Source: Pyrinomonadaceae bacterium MAG19_C2-C3 (GTDB taxonomy: Bacteria > Acidobacteriota > Blastocatellia > Pyrinomonadales > Pyrinomonadaceae). Taken from it: a stretch of 64,000 nt of DNA. The stretch lies in the NCBI GenBank assembly GCA_024330265.1, contig JANDLT010000007.1, positions 1 to 64,000 on the forward strand, read 5' to 3'. Shown piece by piece: positions 17,131 to 30,878 of this stretch; position 1 is the first letter of the stretch, and the number at the start of each line of letters is the position of its first letter. Under the pieces are notes generated by a model. It was not told where the DNA came from. It saw nothing but the letters and a program-made list of their open reading frames with translations, and ran no database searches. The position numbers were made by a program, and so were the translations under genes.

Positions 17131-17802
17131 CTAACGAAAATGTTTTTCAAGCCGTCGTCTCAGTTCGGCACGCGCCCGCGACAATCTTGATTTAACCGTA
17201 CCGACCGTCGTCCCGACCGCTTGTGCGACTTCCTCGTAACTCAAGCCTTCGATGTCGCGTAGGACGACGATTTCGCGTTGCCTGTGTCCGAGTTTATCGA
17301 GAGCCGCGAACAACATCCGCTCACGTTCGCGCGTGAGCGCGGCTTGTTCCGGGTTGTCACTGCGCCCGTCGGGAAGCGAATTGTAAAGCGGGTTTTGCGT
17401 TTCGCCGGACTCATCCGAATCAAGTGAAATCGTCGAAGCCCGTCCGCGTCGTCGCCACCACCTTACGCGATTGCGGGCTTGATTGAGGGCGATGCGATAA
17501 AGCCAAGTTTTCAAATCCGCTTCGCCGCGAAAGTTGCCGATGTTGCGGAAAGCTTGCAAGAAAGTTTCCTGCGTCAAGTCGCGGGCTTCTTCCGCATCCT
17601 GTGTCAAACGCAACAGAAGTCCATAAACATCCGGTGTGCGTTCGGTCACAAGTTTTTCAAAACACGCCGCGTCGCCCGCGCGCAAGCGGTCAATAAACCA
17701 CGCTTCGTAATCAAGCCACACATCGCCGGGAGTCGCACGCTGCCCCGCAACGCCGCCGATGTCCGCTTCCGTGCGGAGAGCAATTGGCTCAAAGAAACGC
17801 AC
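17131..17802 (-). CDS. ECF-type RNA polymerase sigma factor
   Basis: A 223-aa sigma factor of the extracytoplasmic-function (RpoE/SigW-like) group. Region 2 is at about 40-110 (FEKLVTERTPDVYGLLLRLTQDAEEARDLTQETFLQAF...LKTWLYRIALNQARNRVR). Region 4 is at about 160-220 (LGHRQREIVVLRDIEGLSYEEVAQAVGTTVGTVKSRLSRAR). The start is GTG at 17802 with an AAAGG-type site eight bases upstream. It pairs with the zinc-finger anti-sigma gene downstream, although the two are split by 364 bp. Confidence 0.92.
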   Translation of the reverse strand: MRFFEPIALRTEADIGGVAGQRATPGDVWLDYEAWFIDRLRAGDAACFEKLVTERTPDVYGLLLRLTQDAEEARDLTQETFLQAFRNIGNFRGEADLKTWLYRIALNQARNRVRWWRRRGRASTISLDSDESGETQNPLYNSLPDGRSDNPEQAALTRERERMLFAALDKLGHRQREIVVLRDIEGLSYEEVAQAVGTTVGTVKSRLSRARAELRRRLEKHFR

Positions 17803-20452: not shown

Positions 20453-21661
20453 TTAAGCTTCCGGCGTGGTTTTAGATTTGCGCGAAGAAGGTTTCTTAGC
20501 GGCTTTCTCGCCCGTCGCCGATTTCTTGGCGCGTGGTTTCGCGGGTTTGGTAACGGAATCAACGATGTCGGAAACGGCGTGCGCGGCTTCGGATACGAAA
20601 TCCGAAACTCCCGTCGCAATGTCCGAACCGATGTCGCGCACTTCTTGAGGGACAATCGTGCGCGCCGCCTGTTCGGTCGCCGAAGCCACCAATGCGACCG
20701 CTTCGCTTGCCGTTGCGGGAGCGTGTTCGGGATTGAGCAATCCGTCCCAACGGTAACGCGGCTTGGCAGTTGGCTGTTGTAACTTGCGTATCACGAAGCG
20801 CGTCACGGCGTCCGTCACCCAGTGGTGATAAAACTCACCGACCGAAGCTATATCGGCGTCCGGCGCGGGATTCATAAAATCAATCGCGTAAGGCACATCG
20901 CCGCGAATCGCAAACTCGACCGTGTTGATGTCATAACCGAGCGCGCGGCACAGCGTCCGCACGTCCTTCGTGACACGTTCGGCAAGGGCGGGCGCGAGGT
21001 AGTTCGGGTCGTTGATGTACTGCTCGCCGCTCAAGTAAGTTTTGCGCGGGTCGTAAGGCATAATCATCACTTCTTCTTGCCCTATGCAGTAGCAACGCAC
21101 GAACTGGTCAAACGGTATGAACTCCTGAAGCGTCATGCACAGTTTATCGGTCGTGTCGTACACGCTCCACAACTGTTCGAGCGAATCAACGCGCGAAACA
21201 TTCTTCCAGCCGCCGCCGTCGAACGGTTTGATTATCGCCGGAAAGCCGACGTAATCTGTGATTTCCTGCCAGTTAAGCGGATATTCGAGATTGCGTAAGG
21301 AGTCATTGGTGACGCCTTCGATATAGTTCTTTTGCGGCAGAAGCACGGTGCGGGGAGTGGCGACGCCGAGTTTTTCCGCGAGTGAATAATTGAAAAACTT
21401 ATCGTCCGCCGCCCACCAGAAAGGATTGTTGACGACGATTGTGCCTTCGAGGGCAAGGCGTTTCATGAAGGCGCGATAGAACGGAATTTCGTGCGAGATG
21501 CGGTCAATCACGAGGTCATACTTGGCGACTTCATCATGGCGCACGCCGCCGATGGTTATCATCTCGGCGGTGATTTCGCCGTTGCTCTGTTCGGGGATGG
21601 TACGTATTAGGGCTTCTGGAAATGTGGTCTCGCGTCCAACGATAATTCCGACTTTTTTCAC
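20453..21661 (-). CDS. RimK-like ATP-grasp ligase with basic C-terminal tail
   Basis: A 402-aa protein. Residues 1-~300 form an ATP-grasp fold: a pre-ATP-grasp domain (KKVGIIVGRETTFPEALI), the nucleotide-binding segment GFPAIIKPFDGGGWKNV, TLQEFIPFDQFVRCYC, and a metal-binding end VEFAIRGDVPYAIDFMNPAPDAD. The family joins a carboxylate to an amine or thiol with ATP; the substrate here is unknown. The last ~80 residues are low-complexity, Ala-rich and then very Lys/Ser-rich (AKKPSSRKSKTTPEA), unusual for the fold and reminiscent of nucleic-acid-binding tails. It is preceded by a 13-bp tandem repeat array and may belong functionally with the ligase genes at 25-30 kb. Confidence 0.75.
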   Translation of the reverse strand: MKKVGIIVGRETTFPEALIRTIPEQSNGEITAEMITIGGVRHDEVAKYDLVIDRISHEIPFYRAFMKRLALEGTIVVNNPFWWAADDKFFNYSLAEKLGVATPRTVLLPQKNYIEGVTNDSLRNLEYPLNWQEITDYVGFPAIIKPFDGGGWKNVSRVDSLEQLWSVYDTTDKLCMTLQEFIPFDQFVRCYCIGQEEVMIMPYDPRKTYLSGEQYINDPNYLAPALAERVTKDVRTLCRALGYDINTVEFAIRGDVPYAIDFMNPAPDADIASVGEFYHHWVTDAVTRFVIRKLQQPTAKPRYRWDGLLNPEHAPATASEAVALVASATEQAARTIVPQEVRDIGSDIATGVSDFVSEAAHAVSDIVDSVTKPAKPRAKKSATGEKAAKKPSSRKSKTTPEA

Positions 21662-22096: not shown

Positions 22097-22933
22097 GTGC
22101 TTTCATGCCAACTTTCGCAAACCATTTTGCGAACATCTTTGCGAACAACGCGAAACGCGATGCTTACCTTCGCGGCTCTGTGCATAGTCGCGGCGGGCGC
22201 GGTTTCGCCCGTTTTCGCGCAAGACAAAAACAAACCCCCGACCGCCGAACAGGTTGCTGAAACCGTCGTCTTCGTGTACGGGCGGCGCGAGGGTTTGGCG
22301 CAGATTCGTCGCACGGGAGTTGAACGCGGGCGCGTCACCGTTGCCAAAACGGACGGCGCGACGGAACTGGTAAATTATGAGCGGCGGTTTGTGCGCGGCG
22401 AGAAAGCCGAGAAAGATAAAATCCGCGTTGACCAGAAAATGCCGACCGTCGAGTATTCTTTGTTGTTCAAAGACGGGCGCGTTTCCGGCATTATCAACGG
22501 TACGGAGTTCACGCCGCGTCAGGATGCGACCGAAGATTTGGTGTCGCAGATGCGGCACGGCATTGACGCGCTTCTCCGCTATAAAGAGAATAATTCGCAA
22601 GTCGTGTATGTCGGCAAAGAGAAAATCAAAAACATAGACATGCACATTCTCGATTTGATTGACACGGAGAAAAACCGCACGCGCTATTACATCAGCGCGA
22701 CGCCCGACATACGCAAAACCGGGCGCATCCTGTGGCTCGAATACGAAAGCCCGGTTGACGGCACTCCAACGAAATTCAAGCGCACGTTCCACAATTATAA
22801 CTACGCGCAAGGCACGCTCGTCCCGTACCGTTCGGTGCTGTACGCGGGCGATAAGCAAGTCGCGGAGACGCAAATTTTAACCGTCACTTACGGCATCAAA
22901 ATGGAAGATTCGGTATTCCAAGCCGCCGGATAA
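22097..22933 (+). CDS. periplasmic LolA/RseB-like fold protein, unknown function
   Basis: A 278-aa exported protein with a signal peptide (basic start, then MLTFAALCIVAAGAVSPVFA, cleavage near AQDK). The mature part reads as a curved beta-sheet of the LolA/outer-membrane-lipoprotein-sorting type: repeated ..VEYSLLFKDGRVSGIING.., ..RYYISATPDIRKTGRILWLEYESP.., FHNYNYAQGTLVPYRSVLYAGDKQVAETQILTVTYGIKMEDSVF. The closing motif D-S-x-F with preceding V-x-Y-x-I is typical of that fold. The start is GTG at 22097 with a strong AAGGAGAG six bases upstream. The fold is a pattern-level inference; the ligand is unknown. Confidence 0.6.
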   Translation: MLSCQLSQTILRTSLRTTRNAMLTFAALCIVAAGAVSPVFAQDKNKPPTAEQVAETVVFVYGRREGLAQIRRTGVERGRVTVAKTDGATELVNYERRFVRGEKAEKDKIRVDQKMPTVEYSLLFKDGRVSGIINGTEFTPRQDATEDLVSQMRHGIDALLRYKENNSQVVYVGKEKIKNIDMHILDLIDTEKNRTRYYISATPDIRKTGRILWLEYESPVDGTPTKFKRTFHNYNYAQGTLVPYRSVLYAGDKQVAETQILTVTYGIKMEDSVFQAAG

Positions 22934-23046: not shown

Positions 23047-23127
23047 TTTATCCACGAAACACACGAAACAGCACGAAACAATACAGGATTTCTTTGAGTG
23101 TGTTGATTCGTGTGTTTCGTGGATAAA
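23047..23127. repeat. hairpin of CACGAAA words
   Basis: A perfect 20-bp stem (23047-23066 with 23108-23127). The left arm and loop repeat CACGAAAC at roughly 9-10 base spacing. It lies in the 348-bp gap before the sigma-factor gene, where no gene is seen. Confidence 0.75.
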
Positions 23128-23281
23128 AACTTTCTTGTCTGATGTTTTGGGAACTTACGCGATACGTTCGCGTGTAAAGAGAACAGGGAACAACCGTCAG
23201 ATTTTTTGCTTCGGTTGTCTCCATGTTTATTACCTTACAAATTTTCACGGTCGCGCATAATGGCGCATCTTCGGTGATTTG

Positions 23282-23941
23282 ATGACGACCATACTCGTCA
23301 ACCGCGACGATTTTCAGATGCACGCCGAAAGCGGCACGGCGCGCCTTGCGATGTTGTGCGAAGCGGCGTCCGACCACTTGCTGCTCGAAGCCGTGCGCGA
23401 CGGCAGCGAAGCCGCGTTTGCCGAACTTGTCAGTCGTTACCGCAATCAACTGACCAACTATCTTTACCGTCTGCTCGGCGACTACGAAATCGCGGTTGAC
23501 CTTTCACAGGAAAGCTTTATACGGGTTTATCGTGCGCGCGACCGTTATCAAGCGAGTCATGCGTTTTCAACTTACCTATATCGCATCGCCACCAACTTGG
23601 CGATTAGCGAGATGCGCCGCCGCAAACGCCGCCGACTTGTCTCACTCTCCACATTTTTCTCGTCGGGTACGAACTCAAGCGAAACTTCCACCGCGTTCGA
23701 TGTCCCGGACGCCCGACCTTTGCCGGATGCAAATCTGATTGCGCGCGAACGTCAATCAGCCGTGCAAGCCGCGATAAATACTTTGCCGGATAAATACCGC
23801 GTCCCGCTTGTCCTGCGCGACATCGAAGGGCGCACTTACGAAGACATCGCCACGCTGCTCGACATGAACGTCGGGACGATTAAATCGCGCATCAGCCGCG
23901 CCCGAAATTTTTTGCGCGAAAAGCTTGAAGGCTATCTTTGA
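23282..23941 (+). CDS. ECF-type RNA polymerase sigma factor
   Basis: A 219-aa ECF sigma factor. Region 2 is at about 35-110 (AFAELVSRYRNQLTNYLYRLLGDYEIAVDLSQESFIRVYRA...FSTYLYRIATNLAISEMRRRKRRR). Region 4 is at about 160-215 (INTLPDKYRVPLVLRDIEGRTYEDIATLLDMNVGTIKSRISRARNFLREKL). The ATG at 23282 directly follows a TTG in the same frame. It is the first gene of a plus-strand run with an anti-sigma factor and ligases; the anti-sigma gene begins 43 bases after its stop. Confidence 0.92.
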   Translation: MTTILVNRDDFQMHAESGTARLAMLCEAASDHLLLEAVRDGSEAAFAELVSRYRNQLTNYLYRLLGDYEIAVDLSQESFIRVYRARDRYQASHAFSTYLYRIATNLAISEMRRRKRRRLVSLSTFFSSGTNSSETSTAFDVPDARPLPDANLIARERQSAVQAAINTLPDKYRVPLVLRDIEGRTYEDIATLLDMNVGTIKSRISRARNFLREKLEGYL

Positions 23942-23984
23942 AACGCACGCGCACAACCGAAGCTTTAACCACGAACACATCACC

Positions 23985-25028
23985 ATGAATTGCCAAAAAT
24001 TCAAACATTATATTGACGACACCGAAGCGCGTGACGCGAAAGACCTCGATGCGATTGCCCGCCGTCACCTTGCCGCGTGTGCGACGTGTCAAGCCGATTT
24101 CGCCGCGCACGTCAAACTGCGTCACCTGTTGGGTAACTTGGAAGTCGTACCCGCGCCGCCCGATTTCGATGCCCGCCTCAACGCGCGTTTAACTTCCGCT
24201 CAACCTCAAATCGCCGCGCACGCATTTTTCGATTCGTTCCGCTTCACGCCAAGCCTCGCTTCCGTCGCGCTCTCCGTCGTGTTCGTCGTGTTTCTCGGCT
24301 TGGTGTTAATCGCCAATCTGCCGCAATCCGATACCGCGCAATTTCAAGCGAGAGTCGGGAACGATGTTGATAATAATGTTGACACCGCCGATTCGCGTAC
24401 CAACTCAAGTGCTGTCCCAAGTGCCGCGACTTCGCCCGTCGTCACCACCGCGTCGGAAGCGAAAGTTGAAATCAACAAGCCGGAAGTTGTCGCCTTAAAC
24501 ACCGCTTCGACTCCCAAAAGAACACCGACATATAAAAGAACATCAACCGCGAAGCGCATCACCGCGCGACGTGATGCTTTGCCTGTGATACCGGAACGTC
24601 CCGCACCAATCGGAACTGCCGACCAAGCCTCGCGCGCCAGCGACATCACGCGCGTCGCCAACGTCGAAGCGAACCCAACGGAAGACGCTTCATCGAACAT
24701 CACCGATGCCGCGCCGGTTATACGCGCGGAGTCGAAGCTTGATAAATCATTTGAGCGTTTCGGGATTTATACGGACGTTGAAATCATCGCCCGACCTGAT
24801 GTCCAATCTGATAAACAAACGGTTTTGCGCGTGACGCGAGTGCGGGCGGAGAGCGTCGCGGCACAGACGGACGTTCAAGTCGGCGACCGTATCGAAGCCG
24901 TGAACGATGTTCCGGTTGGCAATCTCAAAAACGAAGACATCGAAGCTTTAACTCCACCAAACAATCTGCGCTTGAAGATTCGCCGCGAAACGCGACGGCT
25001 CGAACTCGACTTAAAATTCCCCGAATAA
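23985..25028 (+). CDS. anti-sigma factor: zinc finger, TM helix, PDZ-like domain
   Basis: A 347-aa protein with three visible parts. Residues 1-60 are an anti-sigma zinc finger with H-x3-C-x2-C in RRHLAACATCQAD and an earlier Cys in MNCQKFKHYIDD. Residues about 80-105 form a transmembrane helix (SVALSVVFVVFLGLVLIANL). A Thr/Ser/Arg-rich linker leads to a C-terminal ~90-aa PDZ-like domain (VLRVTRVRAESVAAQTDVQVGDRIEAVNDVPVGN...LRLKIRRETRRLELDLKF). PDZ domains bind C-terminal peptides and regulate envelope proteases; one inside the anti-sigma factor itself is unusual. Start at ATG 23985; a TTG at 23925 would overlap the sigma gene. It probably binds the adjacent sigma factor. Confidence 0.8.
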   Translation: MNCQKFKHYIDDTEARDAKDLDAIARRHLAACATCQADFAAHVKLRHLLGNLEVVPAPPDFDARLNARLTSAQPQIAAHAFFDSFRFTPSLASVALSVVFVVFLGLVLIANLPQSDTAQFQARVGNDVDNNVDTADSRTNSSAVPSAATSPVVTTASEAKVEINKPEVVALNTASTPKRTPTYKRTSTAKRITARRDALPVIPERPAPIGTADQASRASDITRVANVEANPTEDASSNITDAAPVIRAESKLDKSFERFGIYTDVEIIARPDVQSDKQTVLRVTRVRAESVAAQTDVQVGDRIEAVNDVPVGNLKNEDIEALTPPNNLRLKIRRETRRLELDLKFPE

Positions 25029-25139
25029 ATATGCGGCGCAGTGCGGGCAAAGTGTGCTAACCTCGCGGCAATCTCTTTGAATTTCAAGCTTCAAAAGGTT
25101 GCCGTGAATGTCGGCAATCTTAATCTGCACAACCGCATA

Positions 25140-26498
25140 ATGTTGAACGAAGCCGTCTCCCACTATCACGAACTTCTCCAGCAAGGCGACATCGCCGAAG
25201 CCTCACGCCGCACACTCGACGAAGGTTTGGAAAACGCGCGCCTGATTTTCGGCGGGCGTCGTCTCTCGCCCTACTTGCGCCCGCACTTCGTCACCGAAGC
25301 CGATTGGACGCGCGTTTCCGGTATTTGCGAAATCGTGTGGAGCGCGATTCAGAAAGTCAAAAACCGGACGCAAACGCATCCCGCCCTGCTCGACGAACTC
25401 GGCATCACCGACATCGAACGCGAACTCGTCGCCGTCAATCCCGGCTATACGGCAGTCTCACCGACCGCGCGCCTCGATTCGTTTCTGACCGAAACGGCTT
25501 ATAGCTTCGTCGAACTCAACGGCGAAAGTCCCGCCGGAATCGCGTATGCCGATGCCGCGCTTGACATCTTTTCGACTTTGCCCGTGATGCGGAAATTTCA
25601 AGAGCGTTACACCGTGACCGCGCACAAAGGCAGCCACCTCATGCTCGAAGTTTTGTTGGGGGCGTATCAAGAATACTTGGGACGCAAACCCGACACCGCG
25701 CCGCGCATCGCCATCGTTGATTTAAGCGACCGTCCGACGGTGAAAGAGTTCGAGTTGTTCCGCGAATTTTTTGAGCGTCACGGTTTCCCGTCCGTCATCT
25801 GTGTCCCTGAACAACTTGAATACAAAGACGGCGAGTTGAGTTTTGAAGGGGAAAAGATTGACATCGTGTATAAGCGTCTGCTGGTCAATGAGTACTTGCC
25901 GGTGATGAACGACGCGCCCGCTTTGTGGCACGCTTACAGGGACGGCGCGGTGTGCATGGTCAACAGTTTTCAATCGAAAATCATTCACAAGAAAGCTTTG
26001 TTTGCGGTTTTGACAGATGAAAAATATACGAACCTTTTTAACCACGATGAGCAAAGAATAATCGCCGCCCATGTTCCCTGGACTCGTATGCTCGGAGACA
26101 CGCGGACGCGGCATAATGAGCGTGAGATTGAACTGCTCGACTTCGCCGTCACCAACCAATCGCGGCTCGTCCTAAAACCGAATGACGACTACGGCGGACA
26201 CGGCATCAGCATCGGTTGGAACACGACCGCAGCCGAATGGCAGACCGCGATTGATGAAGCGTTGCGCGTCGGTGATTACATTTTGCAAGAGCGTGTGCCG
26301 ACGGCGCGCGAACAGTTTCCGGCTTTAACCGATGACGGCGGCATCGAGTTTGCCGAACAGTTGGTTGACTTAGACCCTCTGCTTTTTAACGGCAAGGTCG
26401 GCTCGGCGTTCACGCGGCTTTCGGCTTCGGAACTGGCGAACGTCTCATCGGGCGGCGGCATGGTTCCAACCTTCGTTATCAGTGAAAAGAAGACCTGA
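25140..26498 (+). CDS. circularly permuted ATP-grasp ligase
   Basis: A 452-aa protein resembling the circularly permuted ATP-grasp group (glutathionylspermidine-synthase-like, DUF404/407 relatives). Segments include FVELNGESPAGIAYADAALDIF near 115-135, RIAIVDLSDRPTVKEFELF, VDIVYKRLLVNEY-type text, VNSFQSKIIHKKALFAVLTDE and the nucleotide loop LVLKPNDDYGGHGISIGW near 375, with ILQERV after it. Such enzymes form peptide-like amide bonds using ATP; substrates are unknown. The start could be GTG 25104, with AAAAGG just upstream, rather than ATG 25140. It follows the anti-sigma gene by 111 bases and precedes PilZ and GCS2 genes, so it is probably in one operon with them. Confidence 0.75.
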   Translation: MLNEAVSHYHELLQQGDIAEASRRTLDEGLENARLIFGGRRLSPYLRPHFVTEADWTRVSGICEIVWSAIQKVKNRTQTHPALLDELGITDIERELVAVNPGYTAVSPTARLDSFLTETAYSFVELNGESPAGIAYADAALDIFSTLPVMRKFQERYTVTAHKGSHLMLEVLLGAYQEYLGRKPDTAPRIAIVDLSDRPTVKEFELFREFFERHGFPSVICVPEQLEYKDGELSFEGEKIDIVYKRLLVNEYLPVMNDAPALWHAYRDGAVCMVNSFQSKIIHKKALFAVLTDEKYTNLFNHDEQRIIAAHVPWTRMLGDTRTRHNEREIELLDFAVTNQSRLVLKPNDDYGGHGISIGWNTTAAEWQTAIDEALRVGDYILQERVPTAREQFPALTDDGGIEFAEQLVDLDPLLFNGKVGSAFTRLSASELANVSSGGGMVPTFVISEKKT

Positions 26499-26533
26499 TT
26501 TACAAACTCCAATTCATTTAAGGAAAGCTTGCT

Positions 26534-26866
26534 ATGAATCCCGAATCGTTTTCACAGGCAGAAACAGCGGCTGATGAAAGACGCCGTTATGATCGCTCGC
26601 GTTTAATAGTGGACGTGTTTTTCGACGGCGGCGATTTAACCGGAGTCGCCAGCACGCAAGACATCAGCGCGGGCGGGTTGTACATGAATACGACCGCCGA
26701 CATTCCCATTGGGGCGCAGCTTTTGATTCGCATCCCGTTTGGCGAAAAACAGATTGTCGCACGCGGCGAAGTCGTGTTCAGCAACGCGGGGCGTGGCGTC
26801 GGCATTCAATTCAACAACATGAATGACGAAACCAAATCCGAACTCACGGGTTTGCTTCAACAGTAA
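26534..26866 (+). CDS. PilZ-domain protein
   Basis: A 110-aa stand-alone PilZ domain. Both signature elements of c-di-GMP binding are present: R17-x3-R21 (RRYDR) and D43-x-S45-x2-G48 (DISAGG). The rest follows the beta-barrel (PIGAQLLIRIPFGEKQIVARGEVVFSN, GVGIQF). AAGGAAAG precedes the ATG. It lies 35 bases after the circularly permuted ATP-grasp gene and 26 before the GCS2 ligase gene. It could therefore make the ligase pathway c-di-GMP responsive; this is inference from context. Confidence 0.9.
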   Translation: MNPESFSQAETAADERRRYDRSRLIVDVFFDGGDLTGVASTQDISAGGLYMNTTADIPIGAQLLIRIPFGEKQIVARGEVVFSNAGRGVGIQFNNMNDETKSELTGLLQQ

Positions 26867-26892
26867 GAATTTGAAGAAAGGTGAAGGCGGAC

Positions 26893-28026
26893 ATGGACGG
26901 CAAATACACTTTAGGAATTGAGGAAGAATTTCAAATTGTTGACCCCGAAAGTGGGGAACTTCGCTCGCACGTTTCCGAGATTCTCGAAGAAGGTCGTATG
27001 CTTTTGGGCGAACAGATTAAGCCCGAAATGATTCAATCAATGGTCGAAGTCGGGACGGGTGTGTGCCGTGATATTGAAGAAGCCCGCCGCGACATCACGA
27101 ACCTACGCGCCGGAATCTCGATGCTCGCACGCAAGCGCGGCTTGGCAGTCGTCGCCGCTTCGACGCACCCGTTTTCGCACTGGCAAGACCAGAAAATCTT
27201 CGACAACGAACGCTACGAAGTCATCGTCGAAGAAAACCAGATGCTCGCCCGCTCACTGCTGATTTTCGGGCTTCACGTTCACGTAGGGATGTCCGACCCG
27301 GAACGCACGATTCACATTATGAACGCCGCGCGGTATTTCCTGCCGCACGTTCTGTGTCTCTCGACTTCATCCCCGTTCTGGCTTGGCAACAATACCGGAC
27401 TCAAATCTTACCGCTCGAAAATCTTCGAGAAGTTTCCGCGTTCCGGCATCCCCGACCACTTCAGTTCGCACGGCGCGTTCAAGTCGTATGTTGAACTGTT
27501 AGTTAAAACCAAGTGTATCGAAGACGGCAAGAAAATTTACTGGGACGTGCGCCCGCATCCGTTCTTTCCGACGCTGGAGTTTCGCGTCTGCGATGTGCCG
27601 ACGCGCGTTGACGACACGATTGCGATTGCCGCTCTGTTTCAAGCAATCGTTGTGACACTTGATAGATTGCTTGACCGCAATCTCGGCTTCCGCTTGTATC
27701 GCCGCATGTTGCTTCAGGAAAATAAGTGGCGCGCCGTGCGTTACGGTTTGGGCGGCAAGATGATTGACTTCGGTAAACAAACGGAAGTCCCTGCGCGCGA
27801 TTTGATTATGGAACTGCTCGAATTTGTGGATGACGTGCTTGACGATTTGGGTTCGCGCAAAGAGGTCGAACACATTCACACCATACTTGAGCGCGGGACT
27901 TCCGCCGATGAACAACTTCGCGTGTACGAAGAAACCGGCGACCTCAAAGAGGTAGTCAAGATGCTCATCGAACGCACCATGGAGAACGTCCCGCGAGAAT
28001 TGGCAGCGGGAAGTCAGGGAACGTGA
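26893..28026 (+). CDS. GCS2/YbdK-type carboxylate-amine ligase
   Basis: A 377-aa member of the glutamate-cysteine ligase type 2 family. The opening YTLGIEEEFQIVD is the family's first active-site strand, and FGLHVHVGMSDPER, STSSPFWLGNNTGLKSYRSK, YWDVRPHPFFPTLEFRVCDVPTRVDD and ENKWRAVRYGL are further signatures. It ligates an amino group to a glutamate-like carboxylate with ATP. YbdK itself has weak gamma-glutamylcysteine activity, so the true substrate is open. ATG 26893 is preferred over GTG 26881 because the motif starts four residues later and AAGGCGG precedes it. It is the last gene of the run and is closed by a terminator at 28057. Confidence 0.88.
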   Translation: MDGKYTLGIEEEFQIVDPESGELRSHVSEILEEGRMLLGEQIKPEMIQSMVEVGTGVCRDIEEARRDITNLRAGISMLARKRGLAVVAASTHPFSHWQDQKIFDNERYEVIVEENQMLARSLLIFGLHVHVGMSDPERTIHIMNAARYFLPHVLCLSTSSPFWLGNNTGLKSYRSKIFEKFPRSGIPDHFSSHGAFKSYVELLVKTKCIEDGKKIYWDVRPHPFFPTLEFRVCDVPTRVDDTIAIAALFQAIVVTLDRLLDRNLGFRLYRRMLLQENKWRAVRYGLGGKMIDFGKQTEVPARDLIMELLEFVDDVLDDLGSRKEVEHIHTILERGTSADEQLRVYEETGDLKEVVKMLIERTMENVPRELAAGSQGT

Positions 28027-28056: not shown

Positions 28057-28094
28057 AAAAGAGGCGGCTCAACGAAAGTTGAGCCGCCTCTTTT
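28057..28094 (+). terminator. intrinsic terminator closing the ligase operon
   Basis: A 17-bp stem (AAAAGAGGCGGCTCAAC with GTTGAGCCGCCTCTTTT) and a GAAA tetraloop end in a T run. It lies 30 bases after the GCS2 stop codon. Confidence 0.93.
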
Positions 28095-28130
28095 AATCGG
28101 TTGAAGCGCAAAATCTCAAACCGCCGCTAA

Positions 28131-28271
28131 AGCGCAATGGCATTAAGTTAGGGATTTCTGACTTGCGGCTGTGCCGCCTGATGTGCGGAAAGGCTCTGCC
28201 TTTCCGGTAATCGGCTTTTTAATCTCCTCGCGGCTGCGCCGCCGATGTTTTTAACCTAATGCCATTGCGCT
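28131..28271. repeat. 141-bp inverted-repeat element
   Basis: The ends AGCGCAATGGCATTAAGTTA and TAACCTAATGCCATTGCGCT are inverted with one mismatch. Internal stems GGAAAGGCTCTGCCTTTCC and CGGCTGTGCCG/CGGCTGCGCCG are present. There is no coding content. Together with the terminator it accounts for the 303-bp gap 28027-28329. Confidence 0.75.
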
Positions 28272-28329
28272 AAAGCGGGTTGATGTTCACATGCGTAACC
28301 CGCGACGCCTTCGCGGTCAAGTGCAGAAG

Positions 28330-28830
28330 CTAAGTTGCGCTGTTTTCGCTTTCCAGTTCACGCATTTCTTTCAAAAAATCCAACGGCTCAACCACTTTAA
28401 GCGGGCGAAACCGGCGACGAAAATCTTTGCACTCGTCCGTATAACCCGTCATCAAATCAAGCAAATCGTTATCGCGGCTGACAATGTAATCCGCTTTGGC
28501 TTCAACGGCGAGATTGATATACGGCTCGTCATCCGGGTCGCGTGAATAGCTAAACTTTTTTGGAACTCGGCGAATTACCTGCGAATTTCTTCGCAATCGA
28601 ATAAGAAACGCTTCAACGACTTCATCGGTCAAAGTCTGAAAATGATTTCTGATTTCGGGACGATTCAAAACATCTTCGATTTCCGCTAAAACATCTTCGC
28701 TCAAATAAAGCCTGACCGAACCTTTTTCAACCAACCGCAAACATTCCGCCGCCACACTTTTCTCACGCGAAGCCGCTTGCAAATGAACATTGCAGTCAAA
28801 CACCGCTCCGACTAAAGCCGTTTGTTTCAT
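28330..28830 (-). CDS. PIN-domain toxin (VapC-like)
   Basis: A 166-aa PIN-domain protein of the PIN_3/COG1569 type. The N-terminal acidic residue in AVFDCNVHLQA, an internal LYLSEDVLAEIEDVL, and the C-terminal DPDDEPYINLAVEAKADYIVSRDNDLLDL carry the expected Asp/Glu active-site set for a metal-dependent RNase. Its start overlaps the upstream antitoxin-like gene by four bases (ATGA), the usual toxin-antitoxin coupling. The C-terminal RFRPLKVVEPLDFL is also typical. RNase toxicity is inferred from the family. Confidence 0.88.
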   Translation of the reverse strand: MKQTALVGAVFDCNVHLQAASREKSVAAECLRLVEKGSVRLYLSEDVLAEIEDVLNRPEIRNHFQTLTDEVVEAFLIRLRRNSQVIRRVPKKFSYSRDPDDEPYINLAVEAKADYIVSRDNDLLDLMTGYTDECKDFRRRFRPLKVVEPLDFLKEMRELESENSAT

Positions 28831-29102
28831 TCGCTTCGTCGGGCTTCGGAAGCCGCACGCCGCGCTTTTCGGAATAGACTATCTAATTCATCATCGTTTA
28901 TCCCGCTCGCTTCGACTTCATCCCTGAACGGTTTGAGGATTTCATCAAAAGGCTTTTCCGATAATTGTTGAATCCTTTGGCGTTTGAGAATCGCATCTTT
29001 AACAACCGATTCAACATATTCAGTAAGCGGCAAGCCCTGTTCTTTGGCTTGTTCGATTGCTGTCAATTCAACTTCCGGCTCAAGTTCGAGTGTTACTGTC
29101 AT
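28827..29102 (-). CDS. antitoxin for PIN toxin
   Basis: A 91-aa protein with an N-terminal strand-helix (MTVTLELEPEVELTAIEQAKEQGLPLTEYVESVVKDAI) of ribbon-helix-helix-like character and a charged C-terminal helical tail (LDSLFRKARRAASEARRSE) that would wrap the toxin. It overlaps the toxin gene by four bases. The pair is on the minus strand between the ligase operon terminator and the amidotransferase gene. The assignment rests on size, order and pattern. Confidence 0.78.
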   Translation of the reverse strand: MTVTLELEPEVELTAIEQAKEQGLPLTEYVESVVKDAILKRQRIQQLSEKPFDEILKPFRDEVEASGINDDELDSLFRKARRAASEARRSE

Positions 29103-29137: not shown

Positions 29138-30130
29138 TTATAGTGAGCTTACTGATGCCAACTCAGGTTGACGATGTTCACATGCGTAACCGGCGACGCC
29201 TTCGCGGTCAAGCGCGGCGCGCATGAAGTTCTCGAAGATGATGCGCCCGTCGCGCGATTCGTTGACGTGTTCCCAGCGCGTGCCGCCGTGCGTGCGACTC
29301 GTATCGTAATCCTCGAAAGATTTTTCAAGGTGAAACTGCACGGCGTAAATCAGTTGGTCATCGTTGCGCCGCATCATCATCTGATTTTTACACAGGTACG
29401 AAGACGCCAAAAGTTCAAAGCCTTCCGGCACGCGGTCGAGTTGCAAACCGTGATTCTGCCAGACGCGAAGGATGCGGGCTTCTTTCGTGTAGTCTTGCCA
29501 CACGCCGGAATGTTCGTCGAGTATGCCGCAGAAAATAGGGTCTTCCGGTGCGGTGATGCGGACGAAGCGATATTGATATTCGTAAAGTCGTCGCGCGCGT
29601 TGTTCCCATTGTTCGAGGTTGTCGAGCGTCACGACTTTCGCCCCGAAACTTAAACCGACGAGTTGATGCCCGCCGCAAATGGCGAGCGTCGGCGTTTGTG
29701 TGCGCGTGATAAATTCCGCAAAGCCTTCGAGAAGCGCGGGATGATACCAATCGAAATCACTCAATGTTCCACTCAACACGATTGCCTGCGGTTCAAATTC
29801 TTCGGCGACGCGCTCTATTTCCGAAAAATGCGCGACGCGCGTTTCGGGTTTTTGTACAAGCCTGTCAATGTTATTGAGGATGTTGCCAACCGCCAGTTTG
29901 CCAATCATGCGTTCACGATTGACACGCGCCGCGACGCCGCGCCCAAGTTCACGAATCGCTGTGTCCGATAAGTCGGCTTCGTCGTGAATCAAATCATTGA
30001 TGACAAGAACGCGAATCCGTTCGATGCGTTTTTCAATCGGTTCATAAACGCAGAACGAGCGTTGGTTAAACGGAAAGGGAAGCGGTTCGGGTTGGTCGTG
30101 CGGTGTCGTGGTGGTGAGTTCTATGGTCAT
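29138..30130 (-). CDS. class I glutamine amidotransferase-like protein
   Basis: A 330-aa protein with a type 1 GATase fold. The nucleophile elbow is PTLAICGGHQLVG (Cys), and the His/Glu of the triad are in YAVQFHLEKSFEDY. QAIVLSGTLSDFDWYHP replaces the usual SGGP loop. The C-terminus (THGGTRWEHVNESRDGRIIFENFMRAAL) is typical of amidotransferases or gamma-glutamyl hydrolase relatives. It may supply ammonia to, or cleave gamma-glutamyl products of, the nearby ligases; this is inference. Start ATG 30130 lacks a clear ribosome-binding site; TTG 30190 is possible. An unknown gene lies 70 bases upstream in the same direction. Confidence 0.8.
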   Translation of the reverse strand: MTIELTTTTPHDQPEPLPFPFNQRSFCVYEPIEKRIERIRVLVINDLIHDEADLSDTAIRELGRGVAARVNRERMIGKLAVGNILNNIDRLVQKPETRVAHFSEIERVAEEFEPQAIVLSGTLSDFDWYHPALLEGFAEFITRTQTPTLAICGGHQLVGLSFGAKVVTLDNLEQWEQRARRLYEYQYRFVRITAPEDPIFCGILDEHSGVWQDYTKEARILRVWQNHGLQLDRVPEGFELLASSYLCKNQMMMRRNDDQLIYAVQFHLEKSFEDYDTSRTHGGTRWEHVNESRDGRIIFENFMRAALDREGVAGYACEHRQPELASVSSL

Positions 30131-30200
30131 CGAAATTATCAGAAGGTTGGAACTGTCAAAATCTTTCTTCGGGAAGGTTTGATGCCGCAAGCCCGCGTTT

Positions 30201-30767
30201 TTAGACGACGGGCGCGCGTTGGCTGGTGGTCTGTTTGAAGTTTGGAACGGCAGAACCCGCGCCGATTTCGTGAATCTCGCGGCGCAAGTTCAAGATGATT
30301 TGTGCGCGCAGACGCGAACGAAAACTTTCCGTGCGTTCGGCAGCGAGATGAGAGATGAGAAGCAAGATACGTTGCCACGCGGATTCGAGTTCATCGGCAA
30401 GACGCGAAATGCGCGTGATGTCGTAAGGCACGGCGACGGCGGTGCAGCCGAGTCGCGCCCAAACCGCGAGATAGCGCGCGGTCGCAAGGTCGGGGCAGAA
30501 GACGCGCTGTTTTCCGATTTTGAGTTCCAACCCTAAAAGCGTGTGCTGAATTTCGATGCGAACCTGCCCACGCGCGGGGACGGGAAGATGAAACGAGCGC
30601 GTGCGAAGCGGCATGATAGTTTCGCGGTACTGCCACGCAAGCCACGTTTCACCCATAGTGTCTTTAATGCGAATCGTCATCTCATCGAGCGAAGGTAAAG
30701 AGGCGGCGTTTAGCCCCACGCTCACGGGCTGTCCCGCGTCTTGTAATTCAGTGACCACGTTCATCAT
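30201..30767 (-). CDS. conserved-looking protein of unknown function
   Basis: A 188-aa soluble protein, not recognised. It has a beta-rich first half (MTIRIKDTMGETWLAWQYRETIMPLRTRSFHLPVPARGQVRIEIQHTLLGLELKIGKQRVFCPDLATARYLAVWARLG) and a helical, Arg/Leu-rich second half (ISRLADELESAWQRILLLISHLAAE). There is no signal peptide. Start ATG 30767 is chosen because AAGGT stands five bases upstream; an upstream extension would run through a palindromic repeat. It is directly upstream of the amidotransferase gene in the same direction, so co-transcription is likely. Confidence 0.6.
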   Translation of the reverse strand: MMNVVTELQDAGQPVSVGLNAASLPSLDEMTIRIKDTMGETWLAWQYRETIMPLRTRSFHLPVPARGQVRIEIQHTLLGLELKIGKQRVFCPDLATARYLAVWARLGCTAVAVPYDITRISRLADELESAWQRILLLISHLAAERTESFRSRLRAQIILNLRREIHEIGAGSAVPNFKQTTSQRAPVV

Positions 30768-30815
30768 CTTTACCTTGCCCTTACCGAATAACCCTCTCAA
30801 AATTAACAAACACTT

Positions 30816-30878
30816 GTTTAGAGGCGGGCTATGCCCGCCTCTTCGGGCGACAACGGCGGGCATAGCCCGCCTCTAAAC
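30816..30878. repeat. TTTAGAGGCGGGC palindrome, copy 3
   Basis: A perfect 24-bp inverted repeat (30816-30839 with 30855-30878) and a 15-nt loop, with the same core as the elements at 18001 and 20328. It lies between nuoN (3' end) and the 30767 start. Confidence 0.85.

Follow-up and report, generated by a model that had tools for sequence, protein, structure and literature searches.

Ligases of the ATP-grasp and GCS2 types are said to lie together, with peptidases, in the amidoligase gene neighbourhoods predicted in 2009 by Iyer, Abhiman, Maxwell Burroughs and Aravind, who reportedly foresaw a role in peptide synthesis or protein modification. Here we describe a related locus in a 64,000-nucleotide stretch of DNA (the window) from Pyrinomonadaceae bacterium MAG19_C2-C3 (JANDLT010000007.1, positions 1-64,000; genome G000 and contig C101 of our set). 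Five genes on its plus strand encode an extracytoplasmic function (ECF) sigma factor, an anti-sigma protein, a circularly permuted ATP-grasp ligase (cpATP-grasp), a PilZ protein and a GCS2-family ligase; a terminator hairpin follows. ATP-grasp and GCS2-type ligases are reportedly common to both settings. We know of no PilZ gene, pairing with a glutamine amidotransferase (GATase) or adjacent ECF module in the 2009 survey. On balance we favour an explanation in which a pathway for a gamma-glutamyl peptide or amide, tuned by cyclic di-GMP (c-di-GMP), lies beside an autoregulated envelope-stress module. The gene block would then be two adjacent, separable units, a regulator unit and a ligase unit, the latter with a putative promoter of the primary-sigma type.

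Several described systems resemble parts of this locus. The two-step synthesis of glutathione or glutathionylspermidine (GspS; YgiC, YjfC) is alike in joining GCS2 with a cpATP-grasp of the eukaryotic-type glutathione-synthetase/GspS fold; it differs in that sequence identity here is 12-17%, a RimK-like ligase, a GATase and PilZ are added, and the genomes bear BshC. The RimK enzyme of Pseudomonas becomes more active with c-di-GMP and is under the control of RimA, a phosphodiesterase (PMC10092738). By analogy it shows that c-di-GMP can govern an amide (glutamate) ligase. RimABK has no PilZ, however, and RimK itself responds, whereas here PilZ lies between other ligases and the RimK-like enzyme falls below the family cut-off. 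Cp1B, the ATP-grasp enzyme of E-64 biosynthesis, shares the fold (the window protein has a weak profile match to 9cjn), but it is fungal, couples trans-epoxysuccinate to an amino acid and has neither GCS2 nor PilZ beside it (PMC12568646). The regulators recall the sigmaE-RseA-DegS system of E. coli: an ECF sigma with a GGAAC -35 element, a membrane anti-sigma, a periplasmic partner of the PDZ/HtrA type, autoregulation and envelope targets. Here, by contrast, the HtrA-type partner lacks its catalytic triad, a bare PDZ is fused to the anti-sigma, the -10 element is CGTGTA and the targets include a secretin. None of the single families is new; what is new is their link with PilZ. Our literature search found no paper joining PilZ, ATP-grasp and these ligases, and none joining a PDZ anti-sigma with Acidobacteria.

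The features of the locus are as follows.

20453-21661, minus strand: RimK-like ATP-grasp ligase, divergent, a pathway partner (rimK_fam 5e-10, below cut-off)
22097-22933, plus strand: secreted protein without a Pfam or NCBIfam match
23150-23176, plus strand: ECF promoter of the sigma gene, GGAACTTACGCGATACGTTCGCGTGTA
23282-23941, plus strand: ECF sigma factor (Pfam, NCBIfam), conserved start ATG 23282
23985-25028, plus strand: anti-sigma with HxxxCxxC, a transmembrane stretch and a C-terminal PDZ, best start ATG 23985
24804-25016, plus strand: PDZ region of the anti-sigma (PDZ_6 3e-8), homologous by phmmer to the last PDZ of c6, a regulator found in relatives
25053-25063, plus strand: candidate promoter of the ligase unit, extended -10 TGTGCTAACCT, conserved as TGTGnTAnnYT
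25140-26498, plus strand: cpATP-grasp ligase of the glutathione-synthetase/GspS fold (AlphaFold2 and Foldseek)
26534-26866, plus strand: stand-alone PilZ protein (Pfam PilZ 7e-13)
26893-28026, plus strand: GCS2-family carboxylate-amine ligase (GCS2 3e-60), best start ATG 26893
28057-28094, plus strand: terminator hairpin of the ligase unit
29138-30190, minus strand: class-I GATase, convergent, a pathway partner (GATase 5e-18)

The ligases and their PilZ companion

An earlier note on this DNA had listed the five genes and the terminator in this order on one strand. Our reading of the open reading frames, with Pfam and NCBIfam matches of the window, bears this out, and the families are those it named. 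Conservation across relatives shifts three gene starts downstream; the cpATP-grasp gene begins at ATG 25140 rather than 25041. The terminator is a perfect 17-bp stem (-31.8 kcal/mol, z -8.4).

The GCS2 protein belongs with the YbdK-type ligases: it scores 540.5 bits with PRK13515 (cut-off 371) and 316 with TIGR02050 (cut-off 176), and matches the YbdK structures 1r8g and 1tt4 at about 1e-53 (1r8g 1e-52). The cpATP-grasp protein stays below the Pfam CP_ATPgrasp cut-off (CP_ATPgrasp_2 3e-5, 23.6 against 32 bits); a profile match to 3n6x (1e-10) confirms its class. Its AlphaFold2 model (pLDDT 89.5) lies closest in Foldseek to human and plant glutathione synthetases and GspS, with TM-scores of 0.6-0.7 (human glutathione synthetase 0.70, 3n6x 0.61, GspS 0.6; also homoglutathione synthetase, YgiC and Cp1B). 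The ATP-site motif KPND..GG is conserved, and E125-x-N127 is invariant within the family. The GATase, above its Pfam cut-off, carries LAICGGHQ with the Cys nucleophile and FHLEK with the His-Glu pair. A second, more distant cpATP-grasp paralogue, 38% identical, is encoded elsewhere in the genome (G000:C143:3381-4676, L055) and in many relatives, near the RimK-like gene in some.

How widely is this arrangement kept? By protein similarity the close relatives are Pyrinomonadaceae/Blastocatellia bacteria of the Acidobacteriota. Of the 119 family genomes 117 carry the cpATP-grasp gene, among them every one of the 69 with good quality; its product should therefore be something core in a dominant soil phylum. 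We read the flanks of about 60 family loci. The order sigma, anti-sigma, c6, cpATP-grasp, PilZ, often c14, GCS2 and then a convergent GATase was found at about 20 loci from 12 genera (g1, g5, g6, g121, g128, g129, g135, g136, g138, g140, g141 and g142), far beyond chance. The GATase was seen in most of these genera, where the contig reaches; c6 and the small protein c14 are not in the window. Cultured Pyrinomonas methylaliphatogenes K22 carries the same arrangement (L038, L208). In about 10 other genera the cpATP-grasp gene has moved, for instance to follow c9 and c18, and what keeps together is PilZ-c14-GCS2 with GATase (L087) or GCS2 with GATase (L081, L082). The earlier expectation that the five genes are neighbours in relatives thus holds for the 12 genera and fails for about 10, where the two units lie apart.

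The three middle genes are conserved neighbours, as the note had supposed: PilZ lies between cpATP-grasp and GCS2 in 24 of 24 clustered family loci. It also adjoins GCS2 in L083 and L087, from which cpATP-grasp has moved. PilZ therefore travels with GCS2 and not with cpATP-grasp, making GCS2 its likeliest client. Both c-di-GMP receptor motifs (RxxxR and (D/N)xSxxG) are present in the window protein, as RRRYDR and DISAGG. All aligned orthologues conserve RRxxxR and DIxxGG(L/F)Y, the second motif reading DISxGG in most and DIGxGG in a few. Long open frames at distant GCS2 loci that looked like GCS2-PilZ fusions proved to be mere frame extensions.

The note had also suggested that the RimK-like and GATase genes nearby might belong, and evidence from other genomes upholds this. 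In other families of the class RimK-like, cpATP-grasp and GCS2 form a tight operon (L039-L044), or RimK-like stands directly upstream of or near cpATP-grasp or GCS2. More distant members of the phylum have RimK-like and GCS2 as neighbours, accompanied by an esterase-like, further ATP-grasp-like, M29-type peptidase-like, GATase-like or PGM1-type ATP-grasp gene. Among 199 phylum genomes, in counts that are not corrected for phylogeny, cpATP-grasp occurs with RimK-like in 29 of 29 and with GCS2 in 25 of 29, GATase of this type is found only alongside cpATP-grasp (21 of 21), RimK-like and GCS2 co-occur in 43 genomes (Fisher 7e-22), in 25 of which they lie within 5 kb, and 10 of the 21 genomes with both GATase and GCS2 have these two no more than 5 kb apart. 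We take the ligase set for a multi-ligase pathway, uncharacterised and probably core, with a PilZ partner.

Three further observations concern the ground around the ligase unit. A MITE-like (miniature inverted-repeat transposable element) inverted repeat lies just past the terminator (28124-28278; 27-nt arms 101 nt apart, 89% complementary). A PIN-domain toxin-like gene and a small partner (28330-29102, minus strand) are inserted between GCS2 and GATase, where none was seen in relatives. A conserved protein without a known family (30201-30863, minus strand) lies between the GATase gene and a NuoN-like gene in most family loci.

The sigma factor, its partners and its targets

The sigma factor (Sigma70_r2 4e-19, r4_2 2e-17 in Pfam) has regions 2 and 4 only, adjoins an anti-sigma with HxxxCxxC and a transmembrane segment, and has an autoregulated promoter; it falls with the ECF sigmas that have a zinc-binding anti-sigma (ZAS). 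The motif reads HLAACATC in the window and HxxxCxxC is present in 20 of 21 family orthologues, the last being cut by a contig end. One transmembrane stretch is apparent by eye. None of the Pfam zinc-finger models reaches its threshold on this protein, and we therefore base the zinc-finger label on the motif and the protein's homology to anti-sigmas (NF052375 5e-7, RsrA 1e-3, both below cut-off).

Relatives have a third regulator gene, c6, which is missing in the window. It encodes a DegQ-like double-PDZ protein that aligns to DegQ over its full length (1.5e-32). In that alignment the His-Asp-Ser triad of HtrA/DegQ is gone: TDL has become TGL, GNSGG is lost and there is no His at the (unaligned) His position. 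The c6 proteins (L106:7301-9028 and orthologues) thus form a family of DegQ-like double-PDZ proteins, their catalytic triad lost, encoded beside an anti-sigma. The N-terminal part of the window anti-sigma matches the family anti-sigmas and its PDZ part matches the last PDZ of c6 (phmmer whole-sequence E values 2.5e-5, 1.8e-4 and 7.9e-4). Judged by these alignments, a c6-type PDZ is fused to the anti-sigma in the MAG19_C2-C3 genome, which suggests that c6 and the anti-sigma work together. Upstream, orthologues of the secreted protein at 22097-22933 adjoin the sigma gene in several genera (L033, L091, L093, L095, L098, L106, L120, L239, L240, L241 and L242).

What does the sigma factor transcribe? 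The regions upstream of the sigma genes share the motif GGAAC-N16/17-CGTG(T/A)A: 18 sequences fit, including that of the window (GGAAC-N16-CGTGTA), and L094 nearly fits. A stricter pattern gave 37 matches in 12 whole genomes against 3 for the reversed control. The genes that recur downstream of such sites encode a secretin (6 genomes), a coiled-coil envelope protein (5), a double-PDZ protein (3) and a DUF3108 protein (2); a pilin-like protein and a T2SSF protein are single cases. The secretin (PF00263 3e-26) is found in the MAG19_C2-C3 genome at G000:C97. Other sites fall within reverse-strand reading frames and are probably chance matches; in this genome, searched with exact patterns only, they include three of the four non-sigma sites that we read. 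Given its own promoter motif and the recurrent envelope targets, the sigma looks like an autoregulated envelope-stress factor. The membrane anti-sigma would hold it until released, and periplasmic C-termini are probably what is sensed by the catalytically dead DegQ-like double-PDZ protein, represented here by the PDZ on the anti-sigma. Once free, the sigma would transcribe its own gene along with envelope genes, the secretin among them.

A 28-nt inverted repeat (23047-23127, 93%) lies directly upstream of the ECF promoter. The window holds a further match to ECF sigma region 4 at 17161-17316 on the minus strand.

One transcript or two?

The earlier note took the block for a ligase operon under the ECF sigma. 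Transcription from 23176 through to 28057, with the sigma switching on the ligases under envelope stress, would suit genes that lie on one strand in an order conserved in 12 genera, with short gaps and, in the window, no strong terminator between anti-sigma and cpATP-grasp. The distribution of promoter motifs speaks otherwise. In a position weight matrix scan the site of the sigma gene is the sole high-scoring ECF site of the window (29.6 bits, the next 14.3). Across the window and 24 family loci, the scan placed ECF sites at the sigma gene only, with none upstream of cpATP-grasp, PilZ, GCS2, RimK-like or GATase; the other targets of the sigma are envelope genes. The cpATP-grasp gene has a conserved -10 of its own: TGTGnTAnnYT occurs 32-105 nt upstream of it in 20 of the 24 clustered family loci, where shuffling predicts 0.16. 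In L126 the genes upstream differ and the motif is kept.

The units also come apart. G025 and G298 keep the sigma unit next to RimK-like, with both cpATP-grasp and PilZ-GCS2 far away or on other contigs; opposite-strand open reading frames separate c6 from cpATP-grasp in L129, and a strong 17-bp terminator does so in L095. In other families the RimK-cpATP-grasp-GCS2 operons lack the sigma. A conserved terminator between the units was discarded as an idea, since strict criteria yielded one at just 1 of 22 loci; the case for separability rests on the promoter and the relocations. We conclude that the ligases are probably not under this ECF sigma, and that the single operon of the earlier note is unlikely.

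The stretch from the end of the anti-sigma gene through the cpATP-grasp leader (25020-25145) folds unusually well (-50.1 kcal/mol, z -6.4). As a riboswitch it was rejected: the fold is not conserved in most relatives and Rfam gave no match.

What the ligases may make

The enzymes suggest, from their families and the modelled fold, that a gamma-glutamyl group is transferred first and that a second amide bond is then made. GCS2 would join the gamma-carboxylate of glutamate to an amine, cpATP-grasp would form the next amide bond, the RimK-like enzyme would attach one more residue, and a terminal amide would be made with ammonia from GATase. PilZ, upon binding c-di-GMP, would tune the activity of GCS2. 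A multi-ligase pathway making a peptide-like amide, close to the metabolite that the note proposed alongside protein modification, is still the best reading.

The closest structures invite a different product. If GCS2 made gamma-glutamylcysteine and cpATP-grasp acted as a glutathione synthetase, the product would be a glutathione-like thiol. The top Foldseek matches are indeed glutathione and homoglutathione synthetases. Canonical GshA (PF04262) is absent from 10 of 10 genomes, and the GshB ATP-grasp (PF02955) from the MAG19_C2-C3 genome and all 5 family members tested, the 2 of 10 genomes that have it lying outside the family. Yet all ten genomes encode BshC, an enzyme of bacillithiol synthesis, and published work predicts that Acidobacteria have bacillithiol and lack gshA-B (PMC6282198). 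A main-thiol role is therefore unlikely, and it was on BshC that we demoted cpATP-grasp as a glutathione synthetase. At 12-17% identity, moreover, the fold does not predict the substrate. We regard the thiol as quite improbable.

Alternatively, the ligases might tag a protein, by RimK-style glutamylation or with a peptide, and PilZ would be the c-di-GMP switch. The RimK-like partner and the Pseudomonas precedent (PMC10092738) speak for this. The RimK-like protein, however, scores 100 bits below the RimK family cut-off; no conserved small-protein or N-terminal nucleophile peptidase partner was seen; the cpATP-grasp fold is that of small-molecule peptide ligases; and the GATase and, in other families, the neighbouring esterase and M29-type peptidase better fit metabolite chemistry. 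Tagging seems to us an outside prospect, and we return to the small gamma-glutamyl peptide or amide.

Several points weigh against that reading too. The RimK-like protein reaches 39.1 bits with TIGR00768 (cut-off 143.4) and can be called RimK-like only. Several genera keep the enzymes and lack PilZ near GCS2, so PilZ is not needed for catalysis. The co-occurrence counts still contain shared ancestry. Finally, transcription that starts at the sigma promoter may run on into the ligases, because the gap upstream of cpATP-grasp is short (111 nt here, 47-270 nt in most relatives) and a strict terminator is so rare there.

Apart from the core place of cpATP-grasp in the family, two features make the locus matter. 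The first is the PilZ gene: placed invariably between two amide ligases, it lets one ask cleanly whether c-di-GMP directly controls the making of a small molecule. In its fullest form our proposal is tentative and, taken whole, doubtful: a core pathway, spread across the family within the Acidobacteriota, in which GCS2 and an ATP-grasp of the glutathione-synthetase fold produce a novel gamma-glutamyl peptide or amide, the first committed ligase being gated by a dedicated c-di-GMP-binding PilZ partner. If true, it would mean that a second messenger controls non-ribosomal amide synthesis by way of a PilZ adaptor. The second is the neighbouring sigma, which has an unusually readable regulon and whose partner, an HtrA relative without catalytic activity residues, survives here only as a PDZ carried by the anti-sigma.

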